Source of the DNA: Romanomermis culicivorax
Lineage: Eukaryota > Nematoda > Enoplea > Mermithida > Mermithidae
DNA: 64,000 nt
Direction of reading: 5' to 3'
Assembly: GCA_963922205.1 (NCBI GenBank)
Contig: CAWUHX010000100.1
Location: 62,001-126,000, forward strand
A program made the translations under genes and the position numbers. Every line of letters begins with the position of its first letter. Position 1 is the stretch's first letter. The notes beneath the pieces were generated by a model that searched no databases, was not told the origin of the DNA, and saw only the letters and a program-made list of their open reading frames with translations. Shown piece by piece: positions 14,902 to 63,470 of the stretch.

Positions 14902-15794
14902 TGTAACGACCAGTTTTGAGAAGCACTTTACTTGATCCGGAAGCAACGGACGTTACGGTGGATAAAGGGACGCGGGACGTGGTAGCAACGATAATATAAA
15001 AGGATGGTCGATGGTTGCTTGATAATCGATTACACAAAAAATGAACCGCGCGCTCACTTGAAAATATAATAACGACTCCGTTTAATTGCTTTCGAAAAAA
15101 CGGCTGCTTGCAAATGAAACTAAACGATCGCGAAAATCGAAAACTGAGAACTATGAATAAAAATAAAATCACGCTTTGCTTCTCTTTAAATACGACGTTT
15201 TTGGCCACTCCCTGGGCGTTGCGGGAGGTCTTGCTTCTGTCCATCTTCTTCCGCCAATCGCTGCTTCCTGCTTTATTATTCTTGCTAATTTGGTCACGCC
15301 CTTTAATGCTTTTCTAGTACGGCATGCTTTTCGTGTCTTGCTTGCTTCCTACGGTGGGCTTAGCCACACCTCTGTGCTTCTGTGCATGATTTCTGTATCT
15401 GTTTCTCTGTGTACACATGTTTTGTGGGGCCGTCGCTATGGTCCTACTTGAGACTACTGTCTGGGGGGGCTTTTACTTTTTACTGTGTGCAGGTGTTGTT
15501 TACGATTTTTATGAGGAATTACGGTAGCCATGGAATGTGTAGTTTAGTGTAGGTTCTAGGGGACCAGCTGCCATTTGTGAAACTTAATTGGGGCGTCTTA
15601 ATTGGGTCAATAGCTGCTACCGGGGTGTGGAAGGATCAAAATAAAGTACTTCACGTAATTTTACAGGAATATTTGGGTGTGAATGCCAGACATCCTTGAG
15701 ATGATAAATTATGAAAATGAAATAATATTTAATAAATGACTATCAGATACAGTATGCTATATATTTACAGTACTGTGTTAGCAGGTAGGTTACA
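14902..15794 (-). repeat. 3' LTR of retroelement copy 1
   Basis: 893 bp, near-identical to 23267-24157. It starts TGTAACGACCAG and ends GGTAGGTTACA on the plus strand. It contains an antisense (plus-strand) hydrophobic open frame at 15176-15451 that recurs in all four LTRs of the window. Confidence 0.95.
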
Positions 15795-15812
15795 TTTCCC
15801 TCCTTCCCGAGT
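15795..15812 (-). other. Polypurine tract of copy 1
   Basis: On the minus strand GGGAAGGAGGGAAA directly abuts the 3' LTR. This is the expected plus-strand primer site of an LTR retroelement. Confidence 0.9.
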
Positions 15813-15825
15813 TGAACGTCCTCAT

Positions 15826-16995
15826 TCAAGGGTTTCGAGGGCAAGGAGGGGTGGGGATAGTTTCGATAGGTGTTTCTCGAGGGTAGAAAGGGGTTGTCTC
15901 ATTTACATGTACCGTAAATGTGATATTCTTGTGGGGGTGTTTGAGTGTAACATTGGGGTACATGAAATTTGTAACTGTATAGGGCCCATTTTGATGAGGG
16001 AGGAATTTGGGAGTCAGCCCTTGTTTACACGAATGATTTTTGTAGAGAATGAGATCACCCGCCTTGTAATGGATGTTCTGAGCATGTTTGTTATACTGAA
16101 GGGTATAGTGATCTTGGGCTTTTTGCAAGTTTTTCTGTATGGTTGAGAGTGCTTCTGTAAAGTGAGATTTTACACGAAGGGCATAATCGTTTAAATCAAC
16201 CATGTAGGACATGGGGAAAAAATTTAAGGCTGCGTCTGATGGAAGATTAGCCTGTCTACTGTGGAGCAATTCAAATGGGGGATATAAAGTGCTATCATTC
16301 TTATGAATGTTAATCGAAAAAACGGCATAGGGGAGATAAGTATCCCAATCAGTGTGATTTGAATTGATGTACATGCAGATACCGGTGGCTAGTGTCTGGT
16401 TGCAATGCTCAACTTCCCCATTGGCAATGGGATGGTATGGGGTGGTATGAATTTTTTGAGTATTGCATAAACTATTGATCCATGAAAAGAGATCGGATAC
16501 AAAATCAGAGCTACAATCACAATGGATGATTTTTGGGTAACCATGATGGCAAACAATTTTGGTTACAAATAATTGGGCAATAGTGGCTGCAGTGATATCA
16601 GGGATCGGAAATGCCTCCACATACTTGGTGAAATAATTGACGAAGACAACAATGAATGAGTTGCCGTCTTCAGTTAGGGGTAACCGCCGCATGCAATCAA
16701 CACTGACTCTATCAAATGGGCCAGTCGGCTGAATTAGTACCAGATTCGCATGTATTCTGTACCAGAGGGCTTTTTGTGTCTGGCATGGGTGGCAAGTTTT
16801 GCAATACCATTTGATATCACAGCTCATTTGGGGCCAAAAATATTTTTGCCTGAGCAAGTGTAGAGTTTTCCGGGCAGCGAAATGACCTGTGAATTTGCTG
16901 TCATGATGTGAGGCGATGAGATGCTGGACTTGTGACTTGGAGGTGTATAGTTTTGCCTGCTTGTTGACTATACGAAAGAGGATGTTTTGATGCAC
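15826..16995 (-). pseudogene. Integrase of copy 1
   Basis: A 389-residue open frame. Zinc-binding HHCC region (H..H then CKTCHPC) near its start; the core has the D (VDCM), D (IHCD) and E (NGEVEHCNQ) residues of the DDE triad; a C-terminal GPY-type module (HQNGPYTV) follows. It is the 3' part of pol, integrating cDNA in the nucleus. The linker to RNase H (16996-17268) contains a frameshift and a stop, so pol is not continuous. Confidence 0.93.
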
Positions 16996-17268
16996 TGTGA
17001 ATTTGATGTTTTTTGGCGATTTTTGCTAAAATATTTTTGACAGTTGCATCAGTGCATTGAAGTTCAGCAAAATTTTTCTGTTGCTTTTCTTGTTCAGTTG
17101 CTTCAGCCTCAAGAACAGAATTGGTGATTGATATCTCAGGGCGGGTTTCTAGTTGCTCAATATCAAAGGATTGCTTCGCTGTCTCTGAGGGAAAACGAGA
17201 AATAGCATCTGCATTGCGGTTAGCAGTGCCTTTCTTAGGTCAAATGTCTAGCTGAATACCGGAGAGGG

Positions 17269-18576
17269 CTAATCCCCAAGGGCAATGCGAGGGGATGGGT
17301 TTTCTTTCTGTAAGACTGCCTGAACTGCAGTATGGTCAGTGTGGACTATAACATGTTGCTGGAAAAGATAGGGGCGGAAATACTTGATAAACTCAACTAC
17401 TGCAAGGGTTTCCAACTCAGTTATTGGGTAGTTGCGTTCTGCGGGTTTCAATGTGCGGCTCCCAAAAGCGATGGGGCGATCCTGACCTTTATTGTCTAGT
17501 TGGCTGAGAATGGCGCCAATTCCAAGTTTGGAGGCATCAGTTTGCAAAATTATTGGTTTGGTGAAATCGGGATGCTGCAGTATTGGGGCATGAATAAGCA
17601 ACTCTTTGAGTTTAGTGAAGGCGTTTTGTTGTTCAGGCCCCCATAAAAATTCCGGATTCTTTCTGAGTAACGCTGTGAGGGAGCTAGAAATTTGGGAGCA
17701 GTTCGGGATGAATCTGCGATAATAAGAGGGTAGGCAGAGGTATGACTTGACTTCTTTGGAGCTTTTGGGGGTGGGGATGTCATAAATGGACTGTACCTTA
17801 TTGGGGTCTGGTGAAATGCCTTGCTGAGAAATGACCTGGCCTGAGTATTGGACTTGGGGCTGGCAGAATTTGCATTTTTGTATGTTTAGTTTAAGGCCTG
17901 CTTGTGAGAAACCGGCAAGAATAGTGTCTAAATGTTCCAGCATTTGGGCATGGGAGTCTGTGAAAGCTAAAACATCGTCGAGATAGACAAGGCATGTGTT
18001 CCATTGCAATCCCAAGAGGATAACATCCATTAACCTTTGGAATGTGGCTGGAGCATTGGTGAGACCGAAGGGGAGATAGTTAAACTGATATTGTCTGGCA
18101 GAGCAACTAAAGGCAGTTTTTTCTCTGTCTGCTTGTGCAATGGGAATGGAATAATAGGCATTGGATTGGTCAAGGGACGTAAAATACTTCATTCCACGCA
18201 GGGTGTCTAGAATTTCATCCATGCGGGGCAAGGGGTAGGTATCTTTTTTGGTTACCTTATAGAGGCTTCTAAAATCAATGCATAAGCGATGGCCACCATC
18301 TTTTTTGGGGACTAAAACTGTGTTGGTGCACCATGGAGAAGTGCTCTGGCTTATGACACCTGCTGCTGCGAGTTGCTCAACTTATGCTTGTATGATTGGC
18401 TTTTCTTTTGGGGAGGTTGGAAAAAGGTGTCTACGTACGGGTTGGGAGCCATTGGTGTCAATTGTATGTGAAACAAGGGTCGTTCTACCTACGTCCATTT
18501 TGGATTTAGCATATAATGTAGGATACTTGGATAGGGCGCGTAGAAGTTGAGTTTTTTTCTGTTTCTGTGAGGTCAC
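17269..18576 (-). pseudogene. Reverse transcriptase / RNase H of copy 1
   Basis: RT signatures: LDQSNAYYSIP, LPFGLTNAPATFQRLMD and the YLDD catalytic motif near 17971-17990. RNase H follows with LQTDASKLGIGAILSQ, ELETLAVVEF and VHTDHTAV. A TAA at about 18383, absent from copy 2, separates the N-terminal RT segment (18382-18576) from the main frame (17269-18231). A frameshift ends RNase H at about 17270. Confidence 0.93.
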
Positions 18577-18767
18577 TGGAGGTTAAATTAATGTTTTCTT
18601 TTAACCACGTGAATGTATCGAAACGGTTTGGCTGGTTTTGCATCGAGGGGGTTAGTTTAGCGGGGGCATCTTGTTTTGGGATGTAACATGAGACTGTACC
18701 GATGCATGTTCCAGGGTAAAGAGTTTGGATTGTGTCTTGTGTGTTTAAGACTGATACGTGTATGCGA

Positions 18768-19448
18768 CTAGTGTCTAAATTTTTGGTTTTCAGAGACACA
18801 AGCTGCAAAATGAACTTTGGTATTCTGTTTGGGTTTTGGAGTAAATTCAAGCTGTTTAACTTGTAGGTACGATTTGGGCAAGGGGACAGTAAATTTAGTT
18901 ACTGTATGGGGTGGTAATTCTAATTTTTCGTCTAAGTAGGTTCCACCATGGGTCGAAAGGGGGCTATATTCAAGGCCATCACAAGGTAGTATGACATTGC
19001 CAAATTTGACCTGGGACTTCTGATTGTTGATAGTGTATTCTGAAAATGGACTGAGAAAGTTTTTACCTAGAAGAACATCTGCTGTGCAATCTTTTTGGAC
19101 ATGGACCATTATTGTTTCCTGGATAGTTTGGGCTGTTACTGTAACGAAAGTGGTTCGTACAAAGTGAATCGGAAGGTTATTTGCTGCTTTGGCTTGGACT
19201 ATCGGGGGTTTCATGTCTAGCTGTAGCATTTGAGCGATTCGCGAATCAATGAGTGAGTATACAGCACCAGTGTCAATCATGCCTTTTGTAGTTGGCTTGC
19301 TGTTAAGTGTGATTGGAATGTGAGGGGTATGTTTCTCAGGTACATTCTGGGGTGGCTTATTTGGTCCAGAGATTAATGAGTTTGATTGCGGGAGTTCTGG
19401 GGGTATCAATGTCGACAAGGACGTATTTCTGCTGCATTTGTGCCCCAC
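18768..19448 (-). pseudogene. Aspartic protease of copy 1
   Basis: Retropepsin-type motif MIDTGAVYSLIDS near 19245-19285, with the distal LLGKNFL strand that accompanies it. The frame overlaps the end of the env-like reading frame (19357-20145) by about 90 bp in a different frame. In copy 2 the equivalent region is in one frame, so this offset is probably a copy-specific indel. Confidence 0.88.
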
Positions 19449-21731
19449 AACGATTAGCTAATTCCAAGAGAGCATGGCCGAATGAGGGGGGAATGGTCTC
19501 ATGTAAACGTCTGTTGTGTGATGGTATTTCATACGCATGTTCATTTGTGAGATGATGCTTTGGGGAAGAGAAATATTTTCGAAGAATGAGAAAAGAGTAA
19601 AAGACACCTGAAATGACTAGAGTAATAACAGCTAGATTGATAATGATTTGCAGGGGTCCTTTGAGTAAATTGTTTGATCTTTGGGTAGTACTGGTTATTA
19701 CATGTTCTATGCCTTGACGGGCGCCAGAGAGGGTATTTCCGATTGCTTGGCCACTGCCTGAGATCATATTGTAAACTTTATCTGAGTTGAGAGACATTTG
19801 GGCGGTGTAATTAAGGAGTTTTTTAACGACATGTTTAAGTGTGTGGGTTTTGTAAATGTATTGTTTCAAAAAGAGTAGGTTGGTTGAAATAGTTGCGAGT
19901 TGATCATGAAAAATTGCAGGTTTGTTAAAATGGAAAATGGAAAAATTTTGGTTCCAGACAATTTCTAAAGATAGATCAGTGACATGTGGGGATCCTGTTT
20001 CGCTGACCCATGTATTATTCTGTTTGTAAAGGGCTACATGCATGTGATGGCAGTCAATGGTTTGTGAGAAAGGGGTCAAATTGTTGCCTCCTGGGTTCGA
20101 AAACATGAGTTCGGTTTCGACGAGAATGGTAAAAGTTTGTAGCATGTGTCAGTGATTTTATGGTTGTAAAAGACTTTGGATGAGTTTACCTGCTTACAGG
20201 GCCAGACTGTGAGGGCATCTTCTGTGAATTCTGCTATTATGTCAGTTTGTTGTAGGAATGCATGTGCCCCAAGGGTTGCATCAAGGCGCAGAATTTGCCA
20301 TACTAGATCAAGGTGACGCTGTTGGTGTCTGCATAATTTGCTCCAGACGTTTTTGAAATTTTGGATTTCGAATTCCTGGATTTTATCTGCTAGATAGTTT
20401 AGTTTTGCGTTAATCGGTTCAAAATCATCAAAATCGTAGAGTGTAGTATGGGTTTCGTTGATTTTTGGGGTTAAAAAGGTGTTAGGATGTGGGGTGCTTT
20501 TGTCTAACTGCAAAACAATGCCCTGTTCCGTGAAGACACTGTCTTGGATTTCTGGGCAGTTGGGGTTTGAAAAGAGTGTGTTTTAATGGAGAATAAACCT
20601 TGCAGTTCTTCTATTATCATGTGGGTTTGCGTCAGTTTTATGGGATGTGTATTTTTGTATTCGAAAGGGCATAAGTTTTTGAATGCTGTCTCGTTCCAGA
20701 TAATGGACCCGTCGGCTGTTACACAATGGCCTGATGTCGGTTTGCATGACCCCAGGTCACCTAATGTACCTGTCATAGATTTCCCATTCCAAGATGCTAT
20801 TTGTCCTATTTCTATGATGACGTTAGTGACCGAGGTACAGTGGTGTGTACAACACCATGTGTATTCTACGCTTAGGGAGTTGTTTGTTGACCAAAATCCT
20901 GGTTGGGTTTCGTATAATTTTTGACTGTTGTGTTCTTTGTCTATAACGATTGCCTTACAAACATGCGGGGTTAGATTTTGCATTTCGGTTTGGTCGAAGA
21001 CAATACCTTTTGATCCAAAAAATCCTGTATTAGTACAAATTTTGCGTTTACAAACACTGCATTTGTATGCATCTGTTATGTGTGGCTTAGTGGAGGGGAT
21101 ATAGATTTTTCCGAATGTCTGTACCAGTTTGTCTACTGTGGAAGGAGACATGCATGATACAAGTTTTGGTATGCTGACCGAGTGACCCCCCAATGAAGTT
21201 CCACAGATCTGAAATTGGGCACTACATGATGTGGGGATTATTATACAAAGAAATATACAAAACATCGGCCAAAACAATGTCTTATTGGAGGCGGCAGGGC
21301 ATTGTGTTTTTTTGTTGTGGCAGGTTTGGCATGGCTGCTGTTGGTGTTTTCCGATTTTGAGTTGAGGGGGTGGCCGGTTTGTAATCTGAACAGTCTGTAA
21401 AACTGTAGGAGTTGAGTCATGGGATGGGGTTTGGATTTGCTCACTTGTGGGGGTCAGTAATAGTGTTTGGCAGGGATGGAATCTATAGGGTTGGGGGGGT
21501 GAGGCCGTGTAAAAGGGACAAGAGGTTAAGGCCATTTTTTGAGGGTGTATCGGGGGCGGTGGGCGACTTGGTGTTCTGTTTTCGCAGGATTTTGTAGTCT
21601 GCCAGGATAGTGGGTGGCGATTTTATGATTTTGTCAGCTTCGGGCGTGGGGGTTGGTGACATGGCGCACCAATCAGGTACATCCAGGTCGAGGACATATT
21701 CCTCTTGACTATGGCTGTGAGTGGTGGGCAT
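19357..21731 (-). pseudogene. Env-like glycoprotein region of copy 1, placed between gag and protease
   Basis: Four overlapping frames (21731-21483, 21535-20504, 20513-20076, 20145-19357) together carry a Pro/Thr-rich linker, an internal hydrophobic signal-like segment (about 21221-21280) ending in SCSA, a Cys-rich ectodomain with N-x-S/T sequons (NNSL, NET), and a single membrane anchor (about 19585-19653) with a short tail. This is the layout of a type I viral envelope protein. Cys spacing and the SGHC...IIWNE region remind me of glycoproteins of arthropod negative-strand viruses captured by LTR elements, but I cannot assign the class. Frameshifts break it. Confidence 0.75.
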
Positions 21732-21808
21732 TATAGTTCCTAAAGTAGTCTAAGGGCTGTTAGTTATGGCGGGTAATGTTGAGTAGAATGCAGGGTCATC
21801 AATGTCCA

Positions 21809-23022
21809 TTAGGCGTTGGGGTTGCCTGTACTCAATGCAATTTTGAATATTACGACTTTGTTGATTTGGACAGTACCTGCTTGTATGACCCCTCTGCTTG
21901 CATAGAAAACATTGAAAATTTGAGTAGGGTTTTGAAAGTCAGTTATCAGATCTATGTCCTGTTTGGGAGCAGTGGATGCATCGGTTTTACAATCATGCGT
22001 ACTGTGATTATTACCAAAACAATTTCGCATGATTTTCGGGTGCCTACTGATTTACAATTGCGAGCTACATATCCAAGTTGTCCACACTGAAAGCATGTGG
22101 GTTGCCTAGGGGTAGTAATGTTCCTGTAAGCATTATTCCTGCTGAAAGTGTTGTTACTGAAACTGTTGTAGTTACTCTGTTGTGGGGGTTGAGATTTTAT
22201 TTTGATCTGCAACTGTAAATCTTTTACTTGTTGTTCTAATTGATGCAAAAGATCCTGTTGGTCTGTATTTTTGGTTAGGGAAAAGATGGCTTCGGGTTTT
22301 GGGGGTATAAATGGAAGGGTGTTGGACTTTAGCTCATTTCTAAGGATTTGCTGTTCAATGTAAGCTGCTTCGTCTGACATTTCTTTTAGGGTCATGAACT
22401 GTCTAAACTTAATTGCTTTCCTGATTTTGTTTTGCATGCCTTCTACAAAAAAGGGTTTTATGATCATTTCTCGTGCGTCTGTGTTAAAGTTAGGGTAGGC
22501 GAGGGTTGCAAGGTGTTCTAAATCAAACAAGAATTCAGTTACTGTTTCTGATCATTTTTGTTTTCTCTCACGTAAAAATTGTTGATCTAGCTCATTTTCT
22601 CGATTTTCTGGGAAAAAGGCCTGTAATGCGATATTATACTGCTTGTATGTGTTGGGAGGGTTTTCGGAATTGGCTAAACTTTTGAATTTTGCTAACGGGG
22701 CTCCTCCTAAATGAATCTCTAAATATGCCAACTTTAAGTGTATGTCTGTATCTTTCATGCCTTGGAGGGCCATGAATTGTTCTAATTGTTTATTCCATTC
22801 ACCAAAATGTTGGGTCATGCTGCCTGTGAATACTGTAGGTTTCGCGTAAAAATTATTTGCCATGTTATTACGAATGTTTGCTGTTCTTAGATCATCAATT
22901 AGGGTATGGTTTACTGTATTCTGGTTCAATTGTGTGCACAGAGTACGAAAGTGTTCAGAAAATAAATCATTTATCTGTTCTCTAATGATTTCTCTTAAAT
23001 GATCTTGCATTTGGTGGGTCAT
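21809..23022 (-). pseudogene. gag of copy 1
   Basis: A capsid-like retrotransposon gag segment (QFMALQGMKDTDIHLKLAYL; FLRERKQ ... FLFDLEHLATLAYP), then a Gln/Asn-rich linker and nucleocapsid. Three knuckle-like sites are seen: 22054-22095 (CX2C-X4-Y-X4-C, His replaced by Tyr), 21989-22029 (degraded here, intact in copy 2) and 21870-21911 (perfect CX2C-X4-H-X4-C). A TGA at 22552 interrupts gag in frame, and frameshifts separate the knuckles. Confidence 0.88.
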
Positions 23023-23243
23023 TCTTGGTTTACACTGGGATTTCTGCTTAAATGCTTCAATTTTTGCTGCATGCTGTATTCGTACAAATGTATCGCTTAA
23101 TGTTTTGTTGGAGGGGATTTCCAGTTTGCTTTCTACGAATATCTGTCTTACTGTAGGAAATGATTACTACTGTATTATCTAATGCTTTGGGATGCCCCGA
23201 TAAAGGATACACCTAATTGGGGCAGGGACTTCCAGTGGTTAAC

Positions 23244-23261
23244 GGTATAGTAGGGTCACCA
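23244..23261 (-). other. Primer-binding site of copy 1
   Basis: On the minus strand TGGTGACCC begins five bases inside the 5' LTR. TGG at this position is the complement of a tRNA CCA end. The tRNA species cannot be named from here. Confidence 0.8.
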
Positions 23262-23266
23262 AAATA

Positions 23267-24157
23267 TGTAAGGACCAGTTTTGAGAAGCACTTTACTTGA
23301 TCCAGAAGCAAAGGACGTTACAGTAGACAAATGGACGCGGGACGTGGTAGCAATGATAATATAAAAGGATGGCTGACAGTCACTTGATTGTCAATTACAC
23401 AAAAAATGAACGGCGCGCTCGCTTGCAAATATAATAACGACCCGGTTTAATTGCTTCCGAAAAACGGCTGCTTGGGAATGAAACTAAATGATCGGGAAAA
23501 TCGAAAACTGAGAACTACGAATAAAAATAAAATCACGCTTTGCTTCTCTTTAAATACGACGTTTCTGGCCACTCCCTGGGCGTTGCGGGAGGTCTTGCTC
23601 CTGTCCATCTTCTTCCGCCAATCGCCGCTTCCTGCTTTATTATTCTTGCTAATTTGGTCACACCCTTTAATGCTTTTCTAGTACGGCATGCTTTTCGTGT
23701 CTTGCTTGCTTCCTACGGTGGGCTTAGCCACACCTCTGTGCTTCTGTGCATGCTTTCTGTATCTGTTTCTCTGTGTACACATGTTTTGTGGGGCCGTCGC
23801 TACCGTCCTACTTGAGACTACTGTCTGGTGGGGCTTTTACTTTTTACTGTGTGCAGGTGTTATTTACGATTTTTATGAGGAATTACGGTAGCCGTGGAAT
23901 GTGTAGTTTAGTGTAGGTTCTAGGGGACCAGCTGCCATTTGTGCAACTTAATTGGGCGTCTTAATTGGGTCAATAGCAGCTACTGGGGTGTGGAAGGATC
24001 AAAATAAAGTACTTCACATAATTTTACAGGAATATTTGGGTGTGAATCCCAGACACCCTTGAGACGATAAATTATGAAAATTAAATAATATTTAATAAAT
24101 GACTATCACATACAGTATGCTATATATTTACAGTACTGCGTTAGCAGGTACGTTACA
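23267..24157 (-). repeat. 5' LTR of retroelement copy 1
   Basis: Partner of 14902-15794, with a few percent divergence between them. Termini are TGTAAGGACC and CGTTACA in plus orientation. The same antisense open frame is present at 23540-23815. Confidence 0.95.
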
Positions 24158-24949: not shown

Positions 24950-25336
24950 TTAACTTTTGTCAGCACTTCTCAGTTGACTGTTAGATGCTTCGACTTCGAA
25001 TTTCGGGAAAAACAATCCGAATTTATGTTGAACGCCGGCGAACGTTGCCGCTGCCAAACGATAGCCGCCGGCGTGATCCGGATTGTGTGATAAATGATCG
25101 GTTAAGGTCGTCGGTACGGCTACTTCCGAACCGGCCGGTCGATTGCCGCCGAAATCTACGTAAAACACGCGTTGCAGTAGTTCGTAGACCATAAGAGTGA
25201 CGCCGAATTGGGGGCTACTGCGGAAAACGCGCGCCGCCGTGCCTTTCCAAAACGCTTTCCAACCTTCTTCGCGTAATATTTTACGATAACAATCGACGAG
25301 GCCGTCGTAAGTTGTTTGACCGGCTCGAGCGGCGAC
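24950..25336 (-). CDS. aralar1: Aralar exon 8 (carrier repeat 3 and C-terminus)
   Basis: It encodes [20 protein letters not shown] and [20 protein letters not shown], then a lineage-specific tail ending LRSADKS before the stop. [12 protein letters not shown] is the highly conserved end of repeat 3. Confidence 0.97.
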
Positions 25337-28300
25337 CTGGAAAATCAAAAAATTTATGAAAAACAAAGACAACTGATTCAAAAAACCCAAATATAGATTT
25401 TTCGAATCACGATTAAAAAAGTTTCTGAGCAATATTGATGTGATACGCTTCTTCACATTTTTTCGATTTTTAACGACAGAATTTTTTCTCAACATTGCTT
25501 TGTTTTGTGTTGAAATGGAATACGAAAATTCACAACTTATGTCCACTCCAATTTCGGCGAATTATAGCAAAACTGGTGTCGCCCCTTATTCACGTTTTGT
25601 CACAAAATTTTTTCATTCCGCGCACTGTAAACTTGAGGTCGTGTTCACCATCGTGTTTTAGATTAAGCATGTTTAAGGCCAAATGCATGACTAATTAAAA
25701 TTATGTTGTTTGGTGCAACAGGCGTGGTTAGCACTAAACGCTATTCTCCATCATGTTTGGCGGAATATTTTTCTCCATATCTGAGACGACGGACAATCGG
25801 AGAAAGCGAAAAAATTACCCACTCCTGGTTTCATGAACAATGTTACTTTTTTCCTTTCATTTTTATCTATCTTACAGTACTTTTTCTCAGTTGTACATTA
25901 CGATGAACAGATCATTCAAAACCAGGAGAATATTATAATGATAAAAAAATATTCCGTGAGTCTATTGTACACTCAATCCGGTTTGACGAACAACGGTTCT
26001 GTGCGTGATATTTTTTGTTCAAAACCCGAAATATATTCAGTTCAAATGTGAAATTTACAGCAAGATTGATAATAATGTGTCGATTGAGGGTTACGTCTTC
26101 ACGAAGTTATATCCACATCACAGAAAACTTTTAAAATACCAGTGTGAATGCCACTAAAAACAGCTTTTCCTCATTTTAACGTAGCTCCCTAAACGAAGAA
26201 AAATTTTAAGCATAACCAGGCTAAAATACGATGATGAAGCAGTTAATAAGATAGACAAGTTTAGCGACTTCCTCGAGCAACGATTAGTGCTAAGACATGA
26301 TAATAAATGCGACCTTTAACTTAATGGATTATATCATAGATAACGATGAGATAAAGAAATGAAATTTGCGTACTTGGAGTCTAGTTTTAATAACGTCGGC
26401 AGGAGTGACCAATCCCGCTGCCGGTACGCCGGCGATGAAAGCGCTTATAAATAACGATGGCAGATTATTGTGGCCATTTACATCAGCCGTCCACGTTTTA
26501 GCGTGAGCGTAGACGGGGAAATAGATGGCCGAAAAGGGTATGTCGCGTAAAAAACAAGCTTTCGAGCCTTTGTATAGGCCGAAAAGGCCTAAGTCTTTGA
26601 AAATGGTCGACAGACTAACGCGTGGACCGGCTTGTATTTCGCCTGCCGTTTGTAGACGGATTTTCACAATTTCCACCGGGTTTGTGAACATTACCTAAAA
26701 TTGATCCCAACTGCAGATTGATCAAGAGGTTTAAACTGGCCTAAAATCGAAAAAAGAACATGGGATTCAACAACGATTTTTTAAAGATTTTACTCATTAA
26801 TTGCTATACTTCCTGAATTTTATACTACTGAAAATTTATTTTATTATTTGTACTCCAATGTATTTTAGACAAATATTTTTTGCATTATTTCACTTACTAT
26901 ATTTCACTTCTCGCAATGTTGTTACTGTTCATAATGATGTCTTTGTCTCTTCAAAGCTTCTGGTTAATTTTGCTCTAAAAGTTTTCGAGCTTCACGTTTA
27001 CTAGATATCAACGATTCCCTTTGTTCTATGAATTCTGTTTACATATTTTGACGACTAAAATGAAACCGTCTCATTCTACATTTATGTTTGAATATCGAGT
27101 CATTGTTCAAATGAATAATTTTGGGCTGACCGAATCACACATGTAATTGGGGGGGGGGGGGGCGCTATAGGAACACTCCAGAATCATTCAATCATATGGC
27201 TAGTGTGGTAGTCATAGGAACTTCCATACTCTTGGTCGGAAAAATACGGAGTTTTTTGATGAAAAATGTCAATTTTTAAACAAAAAATGGTCAAAAACGT
27301 CAATGCTCTCGGCGCTTTGCGCAATGATTACATTTTTTACGGTTTTTTAGACGAACTTACGACTTTTTGAACAGTTTTCCAACTTTTTTTTGAAAAAAAT
27401 CGAAACTGTTCCCTTCAAAGATCCCTTGCCCTGAAATTTGGGAGAATTAACGAGAGACCCCGTTACATTATGAACCGAATAATCGGTAGGTGTTATAAGT
27501 CAAGACTTTTTCACATACTGAAACCTTGTTTGGCTGACACCGTGCATCACGAATGTCAAATTTTTCCGCTCATCTTTTTACGAAACACAATCTTTTTTTT
27601 AATTCAATTTTTTTACTACCAAAAAGCGTTGGTATTACTGCGTCCAGTTCACACCACTCTTATAACGTTATACACACTTGAGCATAGTGGGTTATTGAAA
27701 GGGGATTGATGGGGCGAGGCTTCGGCTTAGGGCGCAGGCTTAAGCCCACGCCTGAACCTAAGCCAAGCCCAAGCTCAAGCCTGAGCCTAAGCCCCGCCCC
27801 GTTAATCCCCTTCATATAACCCACTATGCTCAAATGTGTATAACGTTATAACATGGATGTAAACCAGACGCAGTAATACCAAAGCTTCCGGGAGCCTGAT
27901 CACTTTAGGGCTTTTTCGACTGCCAAAAAACTTCGCTCACAATTTACAAAAAGGAATTTCAGAATATCCGGGCACTTTTCAAATTCTAAGTTAATTTAAT
28001 ATTATATTACAAGAAAACTTACCTGAGAAGCACCGCCGCAGCTGCCGGCCAAAATTTCGGCCCACAAAGGAATTTTTCCCTGCCTCGTGAAACGATCGCG
28101 TACGAAATCGTTGGTCGCCAATTTGATGGCTTTTTCAGGCGCGACGCCCAGAAGCTGGGGTACGAGGCCGCGGTACAATCCGACGAAACCTTCGTGCCGT
28201 ATAACTTTGCGAAAACAATCCCAACTATTTTTGTACATAACTTCGCCGACCATAGTCATATTACGTTGATTTTGCATCCTTGTTTTTACTAGATCAATGG

Positions 28301-50961: not shown

Positions 50962-51786
50962 TGTAACGACCAGTTTGAGAAGTACTTTACTTTATCCTAA
51001 AAACGGACGGTGGTTAAAACGGCGCGGGACACGGAGCGAGGGCGATACAAAATGACAATCGACGGCAGCTTGGTCGTCAATAATGAATAAGGGGACAATG
51101 CGTGTTCGGCTTGCAAATAATCAAAACAGACTCGGTTTAACTGCTTTCATATAAAAAGATGCAGCTCTTGCAAATAAAACGGATTCGAAAAACTAAATTC
51201 GATACGAACATGAACTAACTAAATCATGCTTTGCTTCTCTTTAAATACGGCTTCTTTGGCCACTCCCTGGGCGTCGCGGGAGGTCTTGCTTCTGTCCATC
51301 TTCTTCCGCCAATTGCCGCTTCCTGCTTCGTTATTCCCACTAATCTGGTCACACCCTCCAATGCTTTCCTAGCACTGTATGCTTTGTCTTCTCTGTGCTT
51401 GCTTCCTACAGTGGGCTTAGCCAGGCCTCTGCACTTCTGTGCATGCTTCTGTATCTATTTCTCTGTGTACACATGTTTTATGGGACCATCGCTACCGTCC
51501 TACTTGCGACTACTGTCTGGTGGGGCTTTTACTTTCTACTGTGTGCAGGTGTTATTTACGATTTTTATGAGGAATTACGGTAGCCGTGGAATGTGTATTT
51601 TAGTGTAGGTTCTAGGGGACCAGCTGCCGTTGTGCAAATTAATTGGGGCGTCTTAATTGGGTCAATAGCGGCTACCGGGGTGTGAACGGATCAAAATAAA
51701 GCACTTCACATAATTTTACAGGAATGTTTGGGTGTGAATCCCAGACACCCTTGAGATGATAAATTACGAAATGAAATAATACTTAA
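50962..51786 (-). repeat. 3' LTR of copy 2, main part
   Basis: Matches 62580 to about 63410 with a few percent divergence. It is interrupted after ACTTAA by the Helitron insertion. An antisense open frame lies at 51231-51608. Confidence 0.95.
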
Positions 51787-53409: not shown

Positions 53410-53599
53410 TTCACATCTTTTTAGTGGGCCTCAACCATGCATGAAAACTTTCATAGAAGCACATTGAACTTTTAAATTTGGTCATCTGCACTTCAAAAAA
53501 ACAATAAAAAAACTTCAAGCAATGAATTCTCACCTCTGGCAAAACTAAAGGATGTGTAAACTGCCTAGTACTTCAAAAACGTTGTAAAGATACTGAAAG

Positions 53600-55127: not shown

Positions 55128-55144
55128 TTTCCCTCCTTCCGAAG
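55128..55144 (-). other. Polypurine tract of copy 2
   Basis: Minus-strand CGGAAGGAGGGAAA abuts the 3' LTR as in copy 1. Confidence 0.9.
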
Positions 55145-55158
55145 TTGAACATCCTCGT

Positions 55159-56949
55159 TCAAGGATTTCGAGGGCGAGAAGGGGTGGGGGCGGTTTGGAT
55201 AGTTGTTTCTTGAGGGTAGAAAGGTGTTGTCTCATTTACATGTACCGTAAATGTGATATTCTTATGGGGGTGTTTGAGTGTAACATTGGGATACATGAAA
55301 TTTGTAACTGTATAGGGCCCATTTTGGTGAGGGAGGAATTTGGGAGTCAGCCCTTGTTTACACGAATGATTTTTGTAGAGAATGAGATCACCCGCCTTGT
55401 AATGGATGTTCTGAGCATGTTTGTTATACTGAAGGGTATAGTGATCTTGGGCTTTTTGCAAGTTTTTCTGTATGGTTGAGAGTGCTTCTGTAAAGTGAGA
55501 TTTTACACGAAGGGCATAATCGTTTAAATCAACCATGTAGGACATGGGGAAAAAATTTAAGGCTGCGTCTGATGGAAGATTAGCCTGTCTACTGTGGAGC
55601 AATTCAAATGGGGGATACGAAGTGCTATCATTCTTATGAATGTTAATCGAAAAAATGGCGAAGGGTAGATAAGTATCCCAATCAGTGTGATTTGAATTAA
55701 TGTACATGCGGATACGGGTGGCGAGGGTCTGGTTGCAACGCTCCACTTCACCATTGGCAATGGGGTGGTACGGAGTGGTGTGAATTTTTTGAGTATTGCA
55801 TAAACTAGTGATCTGGGAAAAAAGATCAGATACAAAATCGGAGCCACGATCACAATGGATGATTTTTGGGGAGCCATGACGGCAAACAATTTTATTTACG
55901 AATAGTTTGGCAATAGTGGCTGTAGTGATATCAGGGGTCGGAAATGCCTCCACATACTTGGTGAAATAATTGATGAATACGACAATGAATCGGTTGCCGT
56001 CTTCAGTGAGGGGTAAAAGCCCCATGCAATCAACACCGACTCTGTCAAAGGGGGCTGTCGGCTGAATTGGGACCAGATTTGCATGTATTTTGTGCTGGAG
56101 GGCTTTTTGTGTCTGGCATGGATGGCAGGTTTTGCAATAACGTTTGATATCATGGCTCATTTGGGGCCAAAAATATTTTTGCTGGAGTAAGTGTAGGGTT
56201 TTCCACGAAGCGAAATGACCTGCGAACTTGCTGTCATGATGTGAGGCGATGAGATCCTGTATTTGTGATTTGGGGATGTATAGTTTTGCCTGCTTGTTGA
56301 TTATACGAAAGAGGATGTTTTGATGCACCGGGAATTTGATCATTGTAAGGGGGTGTTTTTTGGCGATTTTTGCTAAGATATTTTTGACAGTTGCATCAGT
56401 GCGTTGGAGTTCAGCAAAACTTTTCTGTTGTTCTTCTTGTTCAGTTGCTTCGGCTTCGAGAACAGAATTAATGGCTGATATCTCAGGACGGGTTTCTAGC
56501 TGCTCAATGTCAAACGATTGCTTGGCTGTTTCTGAGGGGAAACGAGAAATGGCATCTGCATTGCGGTTAGCAATGCCTTTCTTAGGTTGGATGTCTAGTT
56601 GAATACCAGAGAGGGCTAATCCCCAACGGGCAATGCGAGGGGAGGGGTTTTCTTTCTGCAAGACTGCCTGAACTGCAGTATGGTCAGTGTGGACTATAAC
56701 ATGCTGCTGGAAAAGATAGGGGCGGAAATACTTGATAAATTCAACTACGGCAAGGGTTTCCAACTCAGTTATTGGGTAATTGGGTTCTGCGGGTTTCAAT
56801 GTGTGGCTCCCAAAAGCCATGGGGCGATCCTGACCTTTACTGTCTAGTTGGCTGAGAATGGCGCCAATTCCAAGTTTGGAGGTGTCAGTTTGCAAAATGA
56901 ATGGTTTTGTAAAATCGGGATGCTGCAGTATTGGGGCATGAATAAGCAA
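55159..56949 (-). pseudogene. RNase H C-terminal part and integrase of copy 2
   Basis: A 596-residue open frame, the longest in the window. RNase H motifs LQTDTSKLGIGAILSQ (usual DAS is DTS here), ELETLAVVEF and VHTDHTAV; chromodomain-less linker; integrase HHCC (HHDSKF...CKTCHPC), DDE residues in VDCMG, HCDRGSDF and NGEVERCNQ, then GPYTV. The copy 1 equivalent has damaged residues at HCDCSSDF. It is separated from RT by a frameshift at about 56,960. Confidence 0.94.
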
Positions 56950-56980
56950 CTCTTTGAGTTTAGTGAATGCGTTTTGCTGT

Positions 56981-57538
56981 TTAGGCCCCCATGAAAATTC
57001 CGAATTTTTTTGAGTAACGCTGTGAGGGGGATAGAAATTTGGGAGCAGTTTGGGATGAATCTGCGATTATAAGAGGGTAGACTGAGGAATGACTTAACTT
57101 CATTGGAGCTTTTAGGTGTGGGTATGTCATAAAGGACTGTACCTTATTGGGGTCTGGTGAAATGCCTTGCTGGGAAAATATGTGACTGAGGTATTGGGCT
57201 TGGGGCTGGCAAAATTTGCATTTTTGTATATTGAGTTTGAGGCCTGCTTGGGAGAAACGGGCGAGAATGTTGTCTAAATGATCCAGCATTTGGGCATGGG
57301 ATTCTGCAAAAACTAAAACATCATCGAGATAAACAAGGCATGTGTTCCATTGCAATCCCGAAAGGATAACATCCATTAGCCTTTGGAATGTGGCTGGGGC
57401 GTTGGTGAGGCCAAAAGGGAGGTAGTTAAACTGGTATTGCCCAGCTGAGCAATTAAAGGCAGTTTTTTCTCTGTCTGCTTCTACAATTGGAATGGAATAG
57501 TAGGCGTTTGATTGGTCAAGAGACGTAAAATATTTCAT
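56981..57538 (-). pseudogene. Reverse transcriptase core of copy 2
   Basis: YFTSLDQSNAYYSIP, LPFGLTNAPATFQRLMDVIL and VYLDDVLVF. The frame ends at an indel before the connection to RNase H. The N-terminal RT segment lies in the frame 58333-57632. Confidence 0.93.
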
Positions 57539-57631
57539 TCCACGTAGGGTATCTAGAATTTCGTCTATGCGGGGCAGGGGATAGGTATCTTTCTTTGTTA
57601 CTTTATTGAGGCCTCTAAAGTCAATGCATAA

Positions 57632-58333
57632 TTAATAGCCGCCATCTTTTTTGGGGACTAAGACTGTATTGGTGCACCATGGAGAGTTGCTCTGGCTTAT
57701 GACACCTGCTGCTGCGAGTTGCTCAACTTCTGCTTGTATGATTTGCTTTTCCTTTGGGGAAGTCCGAAAAAGGTGTCTACGTACGGGTTGGGAGCCATTG
57801 GTGTCAATTGTATGTGAAACAAGGGTGGTTCTACCTACGTCCATTTTGGATTTAGCATGTAACATGGGATACTTTGATAGGGCGCATAGGAGTTGGGTTT
57901 TTTCTGCTTCTGTGAGGTCACTGGAGGTTAAGTTAATGTTTTCTTTTAACCATGTGAATGTATCAAAACGGTTTGGCTGGTTTTTTATCGAGGGGGTTAG
58001 TTTAGTGGGAGAGTCTTGTTTTGGGATGTAACATGAGACTGTACCAATGCATGTTCCAGGGTAAAGAGTGTGGGCCGTGTCTTGTGTGTTTAAGACCGAG
58101 ATGCGTATGCGACTGTTTTGGTTTTCAGAAACACAAGCTGCTAAATGAACTTTGGCATTCTGTTTGGGTTTTGGAGTGAATTCAAGCTGTTCAACCTGTA
58201 GGTGTGATTTGGGCAAGGGGACAGTGAATTTGGTGACTGTACAGGGTGGTAATTCCAGTTTCTCATCCAAGTAGGTTCCACCATGGGTCAAAAGGGGGCT
58301 ATATTCCAGGCCATCACAAGGTGACATTGCCAA
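57632..58333 (-). pseudogene. Protease-RT junction of copy 2
   Basis: Post-protease linker and RT N-terminus (TLVSHTIDTNGSQPVRRHLF, SNSPWCTNTVLVPKKDGG). An in-frame stop/indel near 57630 separates it from the RT core. Confidence 0.85.
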
Positions 58334-58877
58334 ATTTGACCTGGGACTTCTGATTGTTGATAGTGTATTCCAAAAATCGGCTGAGAAAGTTTTTGCCTAG
58401 GAGGACATCTGCTGTGCAGTCTTTTTGGACATGGACCATTATTGTTTCCTGGATAGTTTGGGCTGTTACTGTAACAAATGTGGTTTCTACAAAGTGAATT
58501 GGGAGGTTATTTGCTGCTTTGGCTTGGACTAGCGGGGGTTTCATGTCTAGCTGTAGGATTTGAGCGATTCACGAATCAATGAGTGAGTATACAGCACCAG
58601 TGTCAATCATGCCATTTGTAAATAGCTTGCCGTTTAGTGTGATTGGAATGTGAGGGGTATGTTTCTCAGGCACATTCTGGGGTGACTTATTTGATCCAGA
58701 TTGGTGGATTTGATTTATGAGTTCGATTGCAGGATTTCTGGGGTTATCAATATCAACAAGGATGTATTTCTGCTGAGTTTGGGCCCCACGACAATCAGCT
58801 AATTCCAAGAGAGCGTGGCTGAATGATGGGGGAATGGTCTCATGTAAATGTCTGTTGTGTGATGGTATTTCGTACAC
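58314..58877 (-). pseudogene. Protease of copy 2, in frame with env tail
   Basis: Frame 58877-58569 starts in the segment equivalent to the env cytoplasmic tail and runs without a stop into MIDTGAVYSLIDS. The protease continues in 58544-58314 (LLGKNFL) after a TGA at 58569. This joins env-like and protease regions in one frame. Confidence 0.85.
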
Positions 58878-60975
58878 ATGTTCATTAGTAACATGATGCT
58901 TTGGGGAAGGGAAATATTTTTGAAGAATGAGAAAAGAGTAAAAGAGGCCTGCAATGACGACAGTGATAATGGCTAGATTGATAATGATTTGGAGGGGTCC
59001 TTTGAGTAAATTATTTAATCGGTCTGTGAGGCTTTATGTAGTGCCGGTTATTACATGTTCTATGCCTTGACTGGCACCAGAGAGGGTATTTCCAATTGCT
59101 TGGCCACTGCCTGAGATCATATTGTAAACTGTATCTGAGTTAAGGGACATTTGGGTGGTGTAATTGAAGAGTTTGTCAACAACGTTTTCAAGTGTGTGAG
59201 TTTTGTAAATGTATTGTTTTAAAAAGAGTAAGTTGGTTGAAATGGTTGCGAGTTGATCATGAAAAATTGCAGGTGTGTTGAAATGAAAGAGGGAGAAATT
59301 TTGGTTCCAGGCGATTTCTAAGGGTAGATCAGTGACATGGGGGGATCCTGTTTCACTGACCCATGTATTATTCTGTTTGTAAAGGGCTACATGCATGTGA
59401 TGGCAATCTACAGTTTGTGAGAAAGGGGTCAAATCGTTTCCTCCTGGGTTCGAAAACATGAGTTCGGTTCCCACGAGAATAGCATTTACCTGCTTACAGG
59501 GCCAGACTGTGAGGGCATCTCCTGTGAATTCTGCTGTTATGTGGGTTCGTTGTAGGAATGCAGGCGCCCCAAGGGTTGCATCAAGGCGCAAAATTTGCCA
59601 TACTAGATCAAGGTGATGCTGTGCCTGTCTGCATAATTCACTCCAGACGTATTTGAAATTTTGGATCTTGAATTCCTGGATTTTATCTGCTAGATAGTTT
59701 AGTTTTGCGTTAATGGGTTCAAAATCATCAAAATCGTAGAGTGTAGTATGGGTTTCGTTGATTTTTGGTGTTAAAAAGGCGTTACGATGTGGGGTGCTTT
59801 TGTCTAACTGCACAATAATGCCTTGTTTGGTTAGGACACTGTCTTGGATTTCTAAGCAGTTGGTGTTCGAAAATAGTGTGTTTTTGACGGAGAATGCACC
59901 TCGAAGTTCTTCTATTATCATGTGGGTTTGTGTCAGTTTTATGGGATGTGTATTTTTGTATTCAAAAGGGCATAGGTTTTTGAATGCTGTTTCATTCCAG
60001 ATAATGGACCCATCGGCCATTACACAATGGCCTGATGTCGGTTTGCATGACCCCAGGTCACCTAATGTACCTGTCATTGATTTTTAATTCCAAGATGCTA
60101 TTTGTCCTATTTCTATGATGACGTTAGTGACCGACGTACAGTGGTCTGTACAACACCATGTGTATTCTACGCTTAGGGAGTTGTTTGTTGACCAAAATCC
60201 TGGTTGGGTTTCGTATAATTTTTGACCATTGTGTTCCTTGTCTACAATGATTGCCTTACAGACATGCCCGGTTAGATTTTGCATTCTGGTTTGGTTGAAA
60301 ACAATACCTTTTGAGCCAAAAAATCCCGTATTAGTTCAAATTTTGCGTTTGCGAACACTGCATTTGTATGTATCTGTTATGTGAGGTTTAGTGGAGGGGA
60401 TATAGATTTTTCCGAATGTCTGTACTGGTTTGTCTACTGTGGAAGGGGGCATACATGATACAAGTTTTGGTATGCTGACCGAGTGACCGCTCAATGAAGT
60501 TCCACAGATCTGAAATTGGGCACTACACAATGTGGGGATTATTATACAGAAAAAGATACAAAACAACGACCAACATAATTTTTTATTGGAGGTGGTGGGG
60601 CATTGTGTTTTTTTGCTCTGGCCAGTTTGGTGCGCTTGTTGTTGGCATTGTGCAGTTTTTAAATGAGGGGGTGGCCAGTTTGTGATCTGAAGAGTCTGTA
60701 AAACTTTAGAAGTTGAGTTATGAGATGGGGTTTGGATTTGTTTACTTGTGGGGGTCGGCAGTAATGTTTGGCGGGTGCGGAATCTGTAGGGTTCGGGGGT
60801 GAGGCCATGTAAAAGGGACAAGAGGTTACGGCCGGTTTTAGAGGATGTTTCTGGGGCGGTGGGCGAATTGGGGGTCTGTTTTCGTGGAGTTTTATAGTCC
60901 ACTGGGATGGTGGGCGACGATTTTACAACTTTGTCAGTTTTGGGTGTGGGGGTGGCGACATTGGGCACCAATCAG
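58878..60975 (-). pseudogene. Env-like glycoprotein region of copy 2, between gag and protease
   Basis: Frames 60971-60336 (linker, signal-like segment ending LCSA), 60284-60084 and 60077-59034 (Cys-rich ectodomain with WCC..HCTSV and GHC...IIWNE, then heptad-like C-terminal part), and a membrane anchor at about 58921-58995. Stops at 60336, 60084 and 59034 show inactivation. It is colinear with copy 1. Confidence 0.75.
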
Positions 60976-62343
60976 GGATGTCCAAATCGAGGACGTATTC
61001 CTCCTGACTGTGCTGGTGGGTGGTCGGCATTATAGTTCCTAAAGTAGTCTGAGGGCTGTTAGTTTTGCGGGGCAATGTTGAGTAGAATGCAGGGTCATCA
61101 ATGTCCATTAGGGGTTGGGGTTGCCTGTACTCAATGCAATTTTGAATATTACGACTTTGTTGGTTTCCGCAATACCTACTTGTATGACCTCTCTGCTTGC
61201 ATAGAAAACATTGAAAATTTGAGTAGGGTTTTGAAAGGCAGTTATCAGATCTATGTCCTGTTTGGGAGCAGTGGATGCATCGGCTTTTACAATCACGGGT
61301 ACTGTGATTATTATGAAAACAAATCTCACATGATTTTCGGGTCCCTACTAAATTACAATTGCGAGCTACATGTCTGAGTTGTCCCCACTGGGTTGAGTCC
61401 CTAGGAGTAGTATTGTTGCTGAGCCCCTAGGAGTAGTATTGTTCCTGTACGCATTATTCCTGCTGAAAGTGTTGTTACTGGAACTGTTGTAGTTACTCTG
61501 TTGTGGGGGTTTTGATTTTTGTTTGATCTGCAACTGTAAATCTTTTACTTGTTGTTCTAATTGATGCAAGAGGTCCTGTTGGTCCGTATTTTTGGTTAGG
61601 GAAAAGATGGGTTTGGGTTTTGAAGGTATCAATGGAAGGGTGTTAGACTTAAGCTCATTTCTAAGGATTTGCTGTTCAATGTAAGCTGCTTAGTCTGACA
61701 TTTCTTTTAGGGTTGCGAATCGTCTATACTTAATTGCTCCCCTGATTTTGTTTTGCATACCTTCTACAAAGAGGGGCTTTATGATCATTTCTCGTGCGTC
61801 TGTGTTAAAGTTGGGGTAGGCGAGGGTTGTGAGGTGCTCTAGATCAAACAAGAATTCAGTTACTGTTTCTGATCATTTTTGTTTTCTCTCACGTAAGAAT
61901 TGTTGATGTAGCTCATTATCTCGATTGTTTGGGAAAAAGGCCTGCAATGCAATTTTATTCTGCTCATATGTGTTGGGAGGGTTTTCAGAATTGGCTAGAC
62001 TTTTGAATTTTGCCAACACGGCTCCTTCTAAATGAATCTCTAAGCATGCCAACTTTAACTGTACGTCTGTATCTTTCATGCCTTGGAGTGCCATGAACTG
62101 CTCTAAACATTTATTCCATTCACCAAAATGTTGGGTCATGCCGCCCGTGAATACTGTAGGTTTTGCGTAAAAATTATTTGCCATGTTATTACCAATGTTT
62201 GCTGTTCTTAGATCGTCAATTAGAGTAGGGTTTAATGTATTCTGGTTCAATTGTGTGCGCAGAGTACGAAAATGTTCAGAAAATAAATGGTTTAACTGTT
62301 CTCTGACGATTTCTCCTAAGTGATCTTGCGTTTGGTGGGTCAT
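60923..62343 (-). pseudogene. gag and gag-env linker of copy 2
   Basis: Capsid-like N-terminus 62343-61873, ending at the same in-frame TGA as copy 1, then Gln-rich linker. CCHC knuckles at 61289-61330 (perfect) and 61169-61210 (first residues intact); the most upstream knuckle has lost a Cys but keeps the His that copy 1 lost. The frame of the last knuckle runs on into the linker beginning MDIDDPAFYS (61108-60923). Confidence 0.86.
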
Positions 62344-62565
62344 TCTTTGTTTACGCTGGGATTTCTGCTTAAATGCTTCAATTTTTGCTTCATGCTGTTT
62401 CCTAAAAATGCTTAATGTTTCGTTGGACGGGATTTCCAGTTTGGTTTCTACAAATGTCTCCTACTGTAGGAAACGATTACTACTGTATTATCTAATGCTT
62501 CGGGCTGCCCGGATAAAGGATACACCTTATTGGGGCAGGGAGTTCCAGTGGTTAAAGGTATGGTA

Positions 62566-62574
62566 CGGTCACCA
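62566..62574 (-). other. Primer-binding site of copy 2
   Basis: Minus-strand TGGTGACCG, five bases inside the 5' LTR, matching copy 1 except for the last base. Confidence 0.75.
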
Positions 62575-62579
62575 AAATA

Positions 62580-63470
62580 TGTAATGACCAGTGTGAGAAG
62601 TACTTTACTTTATCCTAAAAACGGACGGTGGTTAAAACGGTGCGGGACACGGGGCAAGGGCGATACAAAATGACAATCGAGAGCAGCTTGGTCATTGATA
62701 ACGAATAACGGGACAGCCCATGTTCGGCTTGCAAATAATGAAAACGGACTCGGTTTAACTGCTTTCATATAAAAAGATGCAGCACTTGCAAATAAAACGG
62801 ATTGGAAAAACTAAATTCGATACGAACCTGAACTAACTAAATCATGCTTTGCTTCTCTTTAAATACGGCTTCTTTGGCCACTCCCTGGGCGTAGCGGGAG
62901 GTCTTGCTTCTGTCCATCTTCTTCATCCAATCACCGCTTCCTGCTTCGTTATTCCCACTAATCTGGTCACGCCCTCCAATGCTTTCCTAGTACTGTATGC
63001 TTTTCGTGTCTTCTCTGTGCTTGCTTCCTACGGTGGGCTTAGCCACACCTCTGCGCTGCTGTGCATGCTTCTGTATCTATTTCTCTGTGTACACATGTTT
63101 TATGGGACCATCGCTACTGTCCTACTTGAGACTACTGTCTGGCAGGGCTTTTACTTTCTACTGTGTGCAGGTGTTGTTTACGATTTTTATGAGGAATTAC
63201 GGTAGCCGTGGAATGTGTATTTTAGTGTAGGTTGTAGGGGACCAGCTGCCGTTGTGCAAATTAATTGGGGCGTCTTAATTGGGTCAATAGCGGCTACCGG
63301 GGTGTGAACGGATCAAAATAAAGCACTTCACATAATTTTACAGGAATGTTTGGGTGTGAATCCCAGACACCCTTGAGACAATAAATTACGAAATGAAATA
63401 ATATTTAATAACTGAATATCACATAATGTATTCTACATATTTACAGTACTGGGTTAGCAGGTATGATACA
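62580..63470 (-). repeat. 5' LTR of copy 2 (intact)
   Basis: 891 bp, uninterrupted partner of the split 3' LTR. It preserves the Helitron empty site TTTAA/TAACTG near 63406-63415. Antisense open frame at 62849-63205. Confidence 0.95.

Follow-up and report, generated by a model that had tools for sequence, protein, structure and literature searches.

We describe a long terminal repeat (LTR) retroelement in which an envelope-like (Env) region lies between Gag and the protease. The window, i.e. the whole stretch of DNA that was analysed, is 64,000 nucleotides long and comes from the nematode Romanomermis culicivorax (GenBank assembly GCA_963922205.1, contig CAWUHX010000100.1, positions 62,001 to 126,000 of the forward strand). 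It holds two copies of the element, both on the minus strand. The first of these, copy 1, covers positions 14902-24157 and can be classed as a decayed LTR element of the Ty3/Gypsy type. An initial annotation of this DNA had read the order gag (with CCHC zinc knuckles), env-like region, protease, reverse transcriptase (RT), ribonuclease H (RNase H) and integrase on the minus strand. We see the same order in both window copies and, for the knuckles, env and the protease motif DTGA, at 22 of 29 further loci. The features of copy 1 are listed here from the 5′ to the 3′ end of the element.

23267..24157, minus strand: 5′ LTR (TGTAAC...TTACA), its ends matching those of young copies
23252..23266, minus strand: putative tRNA primer-binding site TATTTTGGTGACC, with the identical sequence 3′ of the 5′ LTR in four young copies; a predicted function
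21952..23163, minus strand: decayed gag covering the capsid region and the first CCHC knuckle; its one in-frame stop is also in copy 2
21809..22051, minus strand: rest of the zinc-knuckle region, in a separate frame in copy 1
21483..21749, minus strand: Pro-rich linker joining the knuckles to env, PTAP motif included
20504..21622, minus strand: env N-terminal piece with the linker end, internal signal-like segment and Cys-rich ectodomain; no Pfam match
21218..21283, minus strand: internal hydrophobic segment resembling a signal peptide and ending ..TSCSA|Q, the predicted cleavage site
20076..20582, minus strand: env central piece; PF24664 (Monjiviricetes_fusion) at 31.0 bits, E 8.8e-8, cut-off 27
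19357..20148, minus strand: env C-terminal piece with the ectodomain end, membrane anchor and cytoplasmic tail; PF24664 at 15.8 bits, E 0.0035, under the cut-off
19582..19650, minus strand: transmembrane anchor, as read from the sequence
18768..19457, minus strand: aspartic protease (DTGA); PF13975 at 2.1e-9
17269..18381, minus strand: RT and RNase H; PF00078 at 3.3e-35, PF17919 at 3.3e-38
15826..17025, minus strand: integrase; PF17921 at 6.1e-19, PF00665 at 3.1e-6 (under the cut-off)
14902..15794, minus strand: 3′ LTR

The two LTRs of copy 1 (14902-15794 and 23267-24157) are 94.3% identical across 894 columns and have the ends TG..CA, and in the flanks three of the four target-duplication bases are alike. 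Decay has left several frame changes in env and pol and one in-frame stop in gag. The env pieces were searched singly, never joined, and the zinc knuckle of gag matches PF00098 under the family cut-off (E 0.045). The 19.4-21.7 kb region had been proposed to be a membrane glycoprotein, and its signal-like segment, Cys-rich ectodomain, anchor and PF24664 match agree with this. As the integrase frame stops 31 bases short of the 3′ LTR, copy 1 has no room for an env 3′ of integrase.

Gag, Env and Pol in one reading frame

The genome search for further copies that had been suggested along with this order was productive. With the env core of copy 2 as the query, the 359-Mb genome gave 226 matches, and 116 places were scored of 3573 candidates, hence the counts given here are lower bounds. 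One of the 116 is the query itself, which leaves 115 others. Open frames of at least 2400 amino acids (aa) contain 61 of these 115 places and frames of at least 2000 aa contain 77; a frame of exactly 2486 aa is found at 21.

We examined 29 loci outside the window in detail (L016-L044), with about 1.5 kb on either side of the match. Four CCHC motifs, env and the anchor share a single open frame at 23 of them, and at 22 this frame also includes the protease DTGA, L041 being the locus without it. A hydrophobic segment lies 327-332 residues N-terminal of a DATLG motif at 26 of the 29 loci, and another lies 213 residues C-terminal of the motif at all 29. The remaining pieces of the element were read separately, in part of the copies. 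Gag is a continuous open frame in the pieces of five copies, protease through integrase form a single open frame of 1133-1166 aa in the pieces of three, and in five the 3′ LTR begins about 35 bases beyond the integrase match. Among the copies examined in this way no relative with env 3′ of integrase was seen, and the placement of env before the protease rather than after integrase stands. Where copies are undecayed, env is no gene of its own but a section of one long frame. The signal-peptide, ectodomain and transmembrane region is thus where the initial annotation had located it, and what has to be given up is its status as a separate gene, as its frame is continuous with those of gag and protease.

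The family has inserted recently. In four copies the LTR pairs are 99.55-99.89% identical, with exact 4-bp duplications (CAGT, ACAT, ACAG and GGGT), and these four insertions are young, copy 1 being older. In a fifth copy the 3′ LTR is shortened (301 bases identical) and a matching duplication is lacking. Over the 23 copies with an open frame, the mean ratio of nonsynonymous to synonymous polymorphism per site (pN/pS) is 0.08 for env and 0.12 for protease (253 pairs each, the pairs not being independent). For the knuckle-linker segment it is 0.23, from 114 of the 253 pairs, since 139 were left out for exceeding 20% mismatch when compared without gaps. The low value for env shows purifying selection, with a constraint at least as strong as that on the protease.

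Judging by their predicted products, divergent families in this genome keep the Gag-Env-protease order too. For example, locus L012 on contig C72 belongs to another family, with an env that is 33-39% identical to the window env pieces (39% with the N-terminal piece of copy 1). Its open frame of 2199 aa runs through gag, which matches PF03732 and has a single knuckle motif, then a hydrophobic segment, then env, which matches PF24664 (E 1.1e-14) and contains an RTKR site, and then an anchor, a protease motif and RT. The LTRs of this locus have at least 264 bases identical. When the genome was searched with the C72 env, 4004 candidates came up and 71 places were scored. Close copies at 87-100% identity, many with stops, account for twenty of these, and the other 51 are 37-44% identical to the C72 env; 21 of the 51 lie in frames of 2265-2951 aa, among them frames of 2471 aa at five places and of 2514 aa at three. 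We sampled five of these divergent places. All five are open on both sides of env and have a hydrophobic segment at the env start, four have a CCHC motif upstream, and four have a D[TS]G[AS] motif downstream. The RT families at L009-L011, L013 and L014, which have single frames of 2011-2340 aa, showed neither env nor a CCHC motif or membrane segment in the part that was read. As a separate observation, three env copies of the C72 family lie exactly 7308 bases apart on contig C77 (G000, 999918-1016393), like a tandem array, and three more lie inside about 17 kb of C293. A search for the canonical nematode SL1 leader gave 0 exact matches, which does not mean that this leader is rare.

Relatives are also found outside this genome. 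A protein search with the C72 env, covering 5.8 billion proteins, scored 7996 candidates, of which three matched at E 0.01 (P0123, P0124 and P0125). P0124 and P0125 each have env, protease, RT, RNase H and integrase in one protein, so the env-protease-pol order occurs outside this genome in two proteins, one of them from Oesophagostomum. An RGKR site is present in P0125. P0123 (1079 aa) has PF24664 followed by a weak match to the window protease piece. The window env core, searched against the same protein database, gave no match at E 0.001 among 982 candidates, and no relatives were found in the viral and prokaryote contig collections.

Identity of the envelope-like region and of Pol

The region between the zinc knuckles and the protease matches a fusion glycoprotein of the mononegavirus/chuvirus type. 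PF24664 was found over its cut-off of 27 in six proteins, i.e. two window pieces and four relatives, at 31.0-56.3 bits (E 8.8e-8 to 2e-15); this family is named for Monjiviricetes as a whole, and the chuvirus label is not finer than that. Profiles of herpesvirus glycoprotein B (gB) and of Borna G gave matches under their cut-offs to the env centre of copy 1, which are weak and are co-located in several proteins. The predicted protein has the features of a glycoprotein, e.g. a signal-like segment, a Cys-rich ectodomain, sequons and an anchor. On its Pfam kinship we regard Env as a putative class III fusogen. PDB sequence searches with env returned nothing credible, an NCBIfam search gave no match, and the baculovirus F family was not among the family matches at E <= 1 of the window and C72 proteins. 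A structure-based search had also been suggested. With a model of the env core, Foldseek ranked herpesvirus gB chains first to seventh of 13 weak matches, at E 0.69-3.2, none of which is significant.

The linker has a PTAP motif in 17 of the 23 open copies and in both window copies. This motif might recruit the budding machinery. We take it as a hint only, because a shuffled linker (from one copy) yields PTAP 3.8% of the time and because the motif is absent in the five divergent places.

Pol is Ty3-like. The order protease (PR), RT, RNase H (RNH) and integrase (IN) is a feature of the Metaviridae or Ty3/Gypsy elements, the nearest solved structure is Ty3 Gag-Pol (7q5b, E 4.1e-50, best of 37), and TG..CA ends with 4-bp duplications, found in four of the five copies, fit the 4-6 bp of the Metaviridae. 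No Pao family was among the matches at E <= 1, which speaks against a BEL/Pao Pol by family profiles rather than by direct comparison with BEL/Pao. In an RNase H-integrase tree of 65 rows (60 of 186 matches used; named reference rows for Ty3, errantiviruses and retroviruses not included), one 33-row set (support 93) takes in the window family, C72, P0124 and P0125. The window family groups with the public proteins P0001-P0007 and P0021, and C72, P0124 and P0125 are not separated in their placement within the set. A single origin of the arrangement was considered and is not adopted here, as the tree gives one 33-row set with no internal resolution.

A proposed route to the membrane and its alternatives

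We propose, with a probability of about 0.6, that this Ty3/Gypsy-type family encodes one polyprotein, Gag-linker-signal-fusion glycoprotein-anchor-protease-RT-RNase H-integrase, which is made in the style of the alphaviruses. The order, the one open frame, the selection on env, the recent insertions and the several divergent families are all evident in the genomic sequence. The structural polyprotein of alphaviruses has capsid, internal signal and glycoproteins in a single frame. The topology predicted here resembles it; this compares how the two would work and no more, the alphaviruses being unrelated and having no enzymes beyond the glycoprotein anchor.

In this scheme the genomic RNA would be the sole mRNA. 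Once Gag had been made in the cytosol, the internal signal segment would direct the ribosome to the endoplasmic reticulum (ER), signal peptidase would cut Env from Gag and the ectodomain would enter the lumen. The anchor would halt the transfer, and translation would continue in the cytosol, adding Pro-Pol to the end of the Env tail. All three products, Gag, Env and Pol, would then start out equimolar on the same membrane, where particle assembly would gather the proteases and lead to release of the Env tail and the enzymes. Env could afterwards be used in cell-to-cell or host-to-host transmission. The hydrophobic segments either side of the ectodomain fit a cytosol-lumen-cytosol chain of this kind. 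A 2A-type self-cleavage motif was found in none of 23 copies.

A number of points weigh against this proposal. The evidence on the element family is genomic sequence, and the mechanism is a prediction from it. A particle with as much enzyme as Gag would be out of the ordinary, so extra Gag may be made in a step that is not seen here. Frames at 38 of the 115 env-core places are shorter than 2000 aa (at seven, shorter than 1000 aa), six of the 29 window-family loci are interrupted, and the frames of the 29 loci contain no RxKR-type site. In the stretches read at the five sampled divergent places, the CCHC motif is missing from one and the protease motif from another. No segment of P0125 passes the hydrophobicity threshold that was applied, and none at the start of P0124 does. 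A check for the same order in related species had been suggested, and P0124 and P0125 supply it for env-protease-pol; the fusion to gag is seen in the genome of the window only, because the predicted starts of P0123-P0125 lie near env. Of the 653 positions of PF24664, the match spans only 286-462 or so. The AlphaFold model computed for the env core from six aligned rows is poor, with a mean predicted local distance difference test (pLDDT) score of 46.8, and Foldseek with this model gave no match at E 0.001.

The alternative that survives best, although we consider it unlikely, is that Env is in frame but is made in another way. Gag-Pol could come from an RNA from which alternative splicing has removed env, or Env could be made alone by way of an internal start or a spliced leader. 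There is precedent in the simple retroviruses, which make Env from spliced RNA in the account given in part of PMC10309623. The predicted P0123 begins exactly at its hydrophobic segment, and three acceptor-like motifs lie 3′ of the anchor, in 17, 19 and 18 of the 23 copies. However, no GTRAG-type donor is common to 60% of the 23 copies in the approximately 1 kb upstream of env that was scanned, a scan of strong donors that stopped short of the 5′ region of gag, and none is found in the C72 stretch scanned. Furthermore, divergent families keep env open in frame with both of its neighbours, which an Env that was always translated by itself would not require.

Less probable again is that Env acts within the cell, where it would anchor Gag and Pol at ER membranes or drive ER budding, and that it plays no part in transmission. 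The fusion would indeed put every Gag and Pol at the membrane, and the lack of an RxKR-type site in the window family would suit such a role. However, pN/pS is low (0.08) across the whole env segment, which points to a function of the ectodomain beyond that of the anchors. It is very improbable that the middle region is an extension of Gag or a membrane-anchored spacer, with no fusion glycoprotein at all. The missing PDB sequence match and the poor fold model speak for this reading; against it stand PF24664 over its cut-off in six proteins, the co-located weak Borna G and gB matches, and the signal segment, Cys-rich ectodomain, sequons and anchor. Finally, a chance insertion of a glycoprotein into one element, or an assembly chimera, could be suspected from the decay and broken frames of both window copies, but can practically be dismissed. 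The env core recurs at 115 places elsewhere, spread over many contigs and in 77 cases within a frame of at least 2000 aa, some insertions are young and flanked by target duplications, and related elements exist as divergent families here and as P0124 and P0125 outside this genome.

The proposed polyprotein with its internal Env is like the errantiviruses (gypsy) and the env-bearing Metaviridae in its Ty3-type Pol and its PR-RT-RNH-IN order. In errantiviruses env is a separate open reading frame (ORF) 3′ of integrase. That env is likely of baculovirus origin, according to the passages of PMC12440569 that deal with it. Here, unlike in errantiviruses, there is no env 3′ of integrase (31 bases remain in copy 1 and about 35 in five copies), and Env matches PF24664, not baculovirus F. 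The mosquito BEL/Pao elements named Anakin have a chuvirus glycoprotein that is kept in complete copies, and the env-like proteins of Roo, Tas and Cer-7 sit downstream of the polyprotein, both as described in sections of PMC7642597. Like Anakin as portrayed there, the present family is an LTR element that has acquired a viral-type glycoprotein, which may be of the chuvirus kind; it differs from Anakin in its Ty3-like Pol, and here Env lies inside the polyprotein, ahead of the protease.

The LTR elements TelKA, Vesta and Juno of bdelloid rotifers have captured env genes, that of TelKA resembling a paramyxovirus fusion protein. In the relevant portion of PMC5408684 their env-like ORF3 is discussed as downstream of pol. 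It is of class I, whereas here env is upstream of protease and, by its PF24664 match, putatively of class III. In the MDG1 group, sORF2 encodes a small protein like a membrane fusogen upstream of gag, or downstream of pol in some Lepidoptera (PMC11952523, in its text on sORF2). The two systems share a fusogen-like protein upstream of pol, but sORF2, on that description, is separate and not a fused glycoprotein. Cer1 of C. elegans, going by the part of PMC10309623 on this element, is of the Ty3/Gypsy type and reads from gag into pol with no intervening stop. It encodes an additional protein, CERV, but this is a nuclear product of splicing and no Env. The simple retroviruses in the same source have the order gag-pol-env, with Env from spliced RNA, and unlike in the Retroviridae the gag-pro-pol-env order is not found here. 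Troyka has CG..CG LTR ends and 3-bp duplications in the section of PMC12440569 on this group, unlike the TG..CA ends and 4-bp duplications of our copies.

In the open full-text literature we recognised no description of an Env between Gag and protease among the matches listed, a scope that mostly excludes subscription papers and preprints. On the genomic record, retroelements that carry Env within a single polyprotein are a real type, are under selection and have inserted recently. That such a lineage is selected, recently inserted and spread over multiple families shows that the textbook order, with env after pol and on an RNA of its own, is not required. It raises testable questions about the double passage of one chain through a membrane, the control of the ratio of Gag to Pol, and the action of the protease on a membrane tail. 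In addition, a reverse-transcribing element has here, as in other cases, acquired a fusogen of the negative-strand virus type. Annotation that seeks env only 3′ of integrase would overlook such elements. We see an even chance that these elements represent a deep animal retroelement lineage that solves Env expression without splicing. It would use one RNA and one frame, with Env excised via an internal signal peptide, the protease born as the tail of a fusogen, and Gag and Pol delivered to the budding membrane. The genome of the window would then be a hot spot of many families, some of them active until recently, with relatives in Oesophagostomum and elsewhere.

The second copy and its surroundings

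Copy 2, the source of the genome-search query, is decayed like copy 1, with broken frames. Its features are as follows.

62839..63470, minus strand: 5′ LTR part
55128..62578, minus strand: internal region, identical in order to copy 1 and 88.8% identical to it
60923..61426, minus strand: zinc knuckles (four CCHC motifs) and linker in a single frame
60336..60971, minus strand: linker with a late-domain-like PTAP motif, signal segment and env start in a single frame
59034..60083, minus strand: env core (the query); PF24664 at 40.3 bits, E 1.4e-10
58569..59033, minus strand: env anchor and tail continuing in frame to the protease; DTGA present, RVP at E 0.17 only
55159..57066, minus strand: RNase H and integrase, 635 aa; best-matching solved structure Ty3, E 4.1e-50
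50962..51786, minus strand: 3′ LTR part, separated by an insertion from 55065-55127

Between copies 1 and 2 the ratio of nonsynonymous to synonymous substitution rates (dN/dS) was calculated piece by piece. The gag pieces gave 0.33 and 0.45 and the env pieces 0.41, 0.36 and 0.22; the values within pol were 0.25 (protease), 0.21 (RT) and 0.27 (integrase). Both window copies have an in-frame TGA in gag (22552-22554 and 61873-61875) despite their 11% divergence. We rejected a programmed stop or recoding at this TGA; since the site is open in the gag pieces of five other copies, it is more readily read as a shared lesion, from a common ancestor, or as a repeated mutation. The insertion within the 3′ LTR of copy 2 (51787-55064) is about 3.3 kb long and has about ten 98-bp tandem repeats at 53600-54576. 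Adjoining copy 1, positions 24950-25561 encode a mitochondrial carrier domain (PF00153, 2.6e-14), likely an exon of a host gene.

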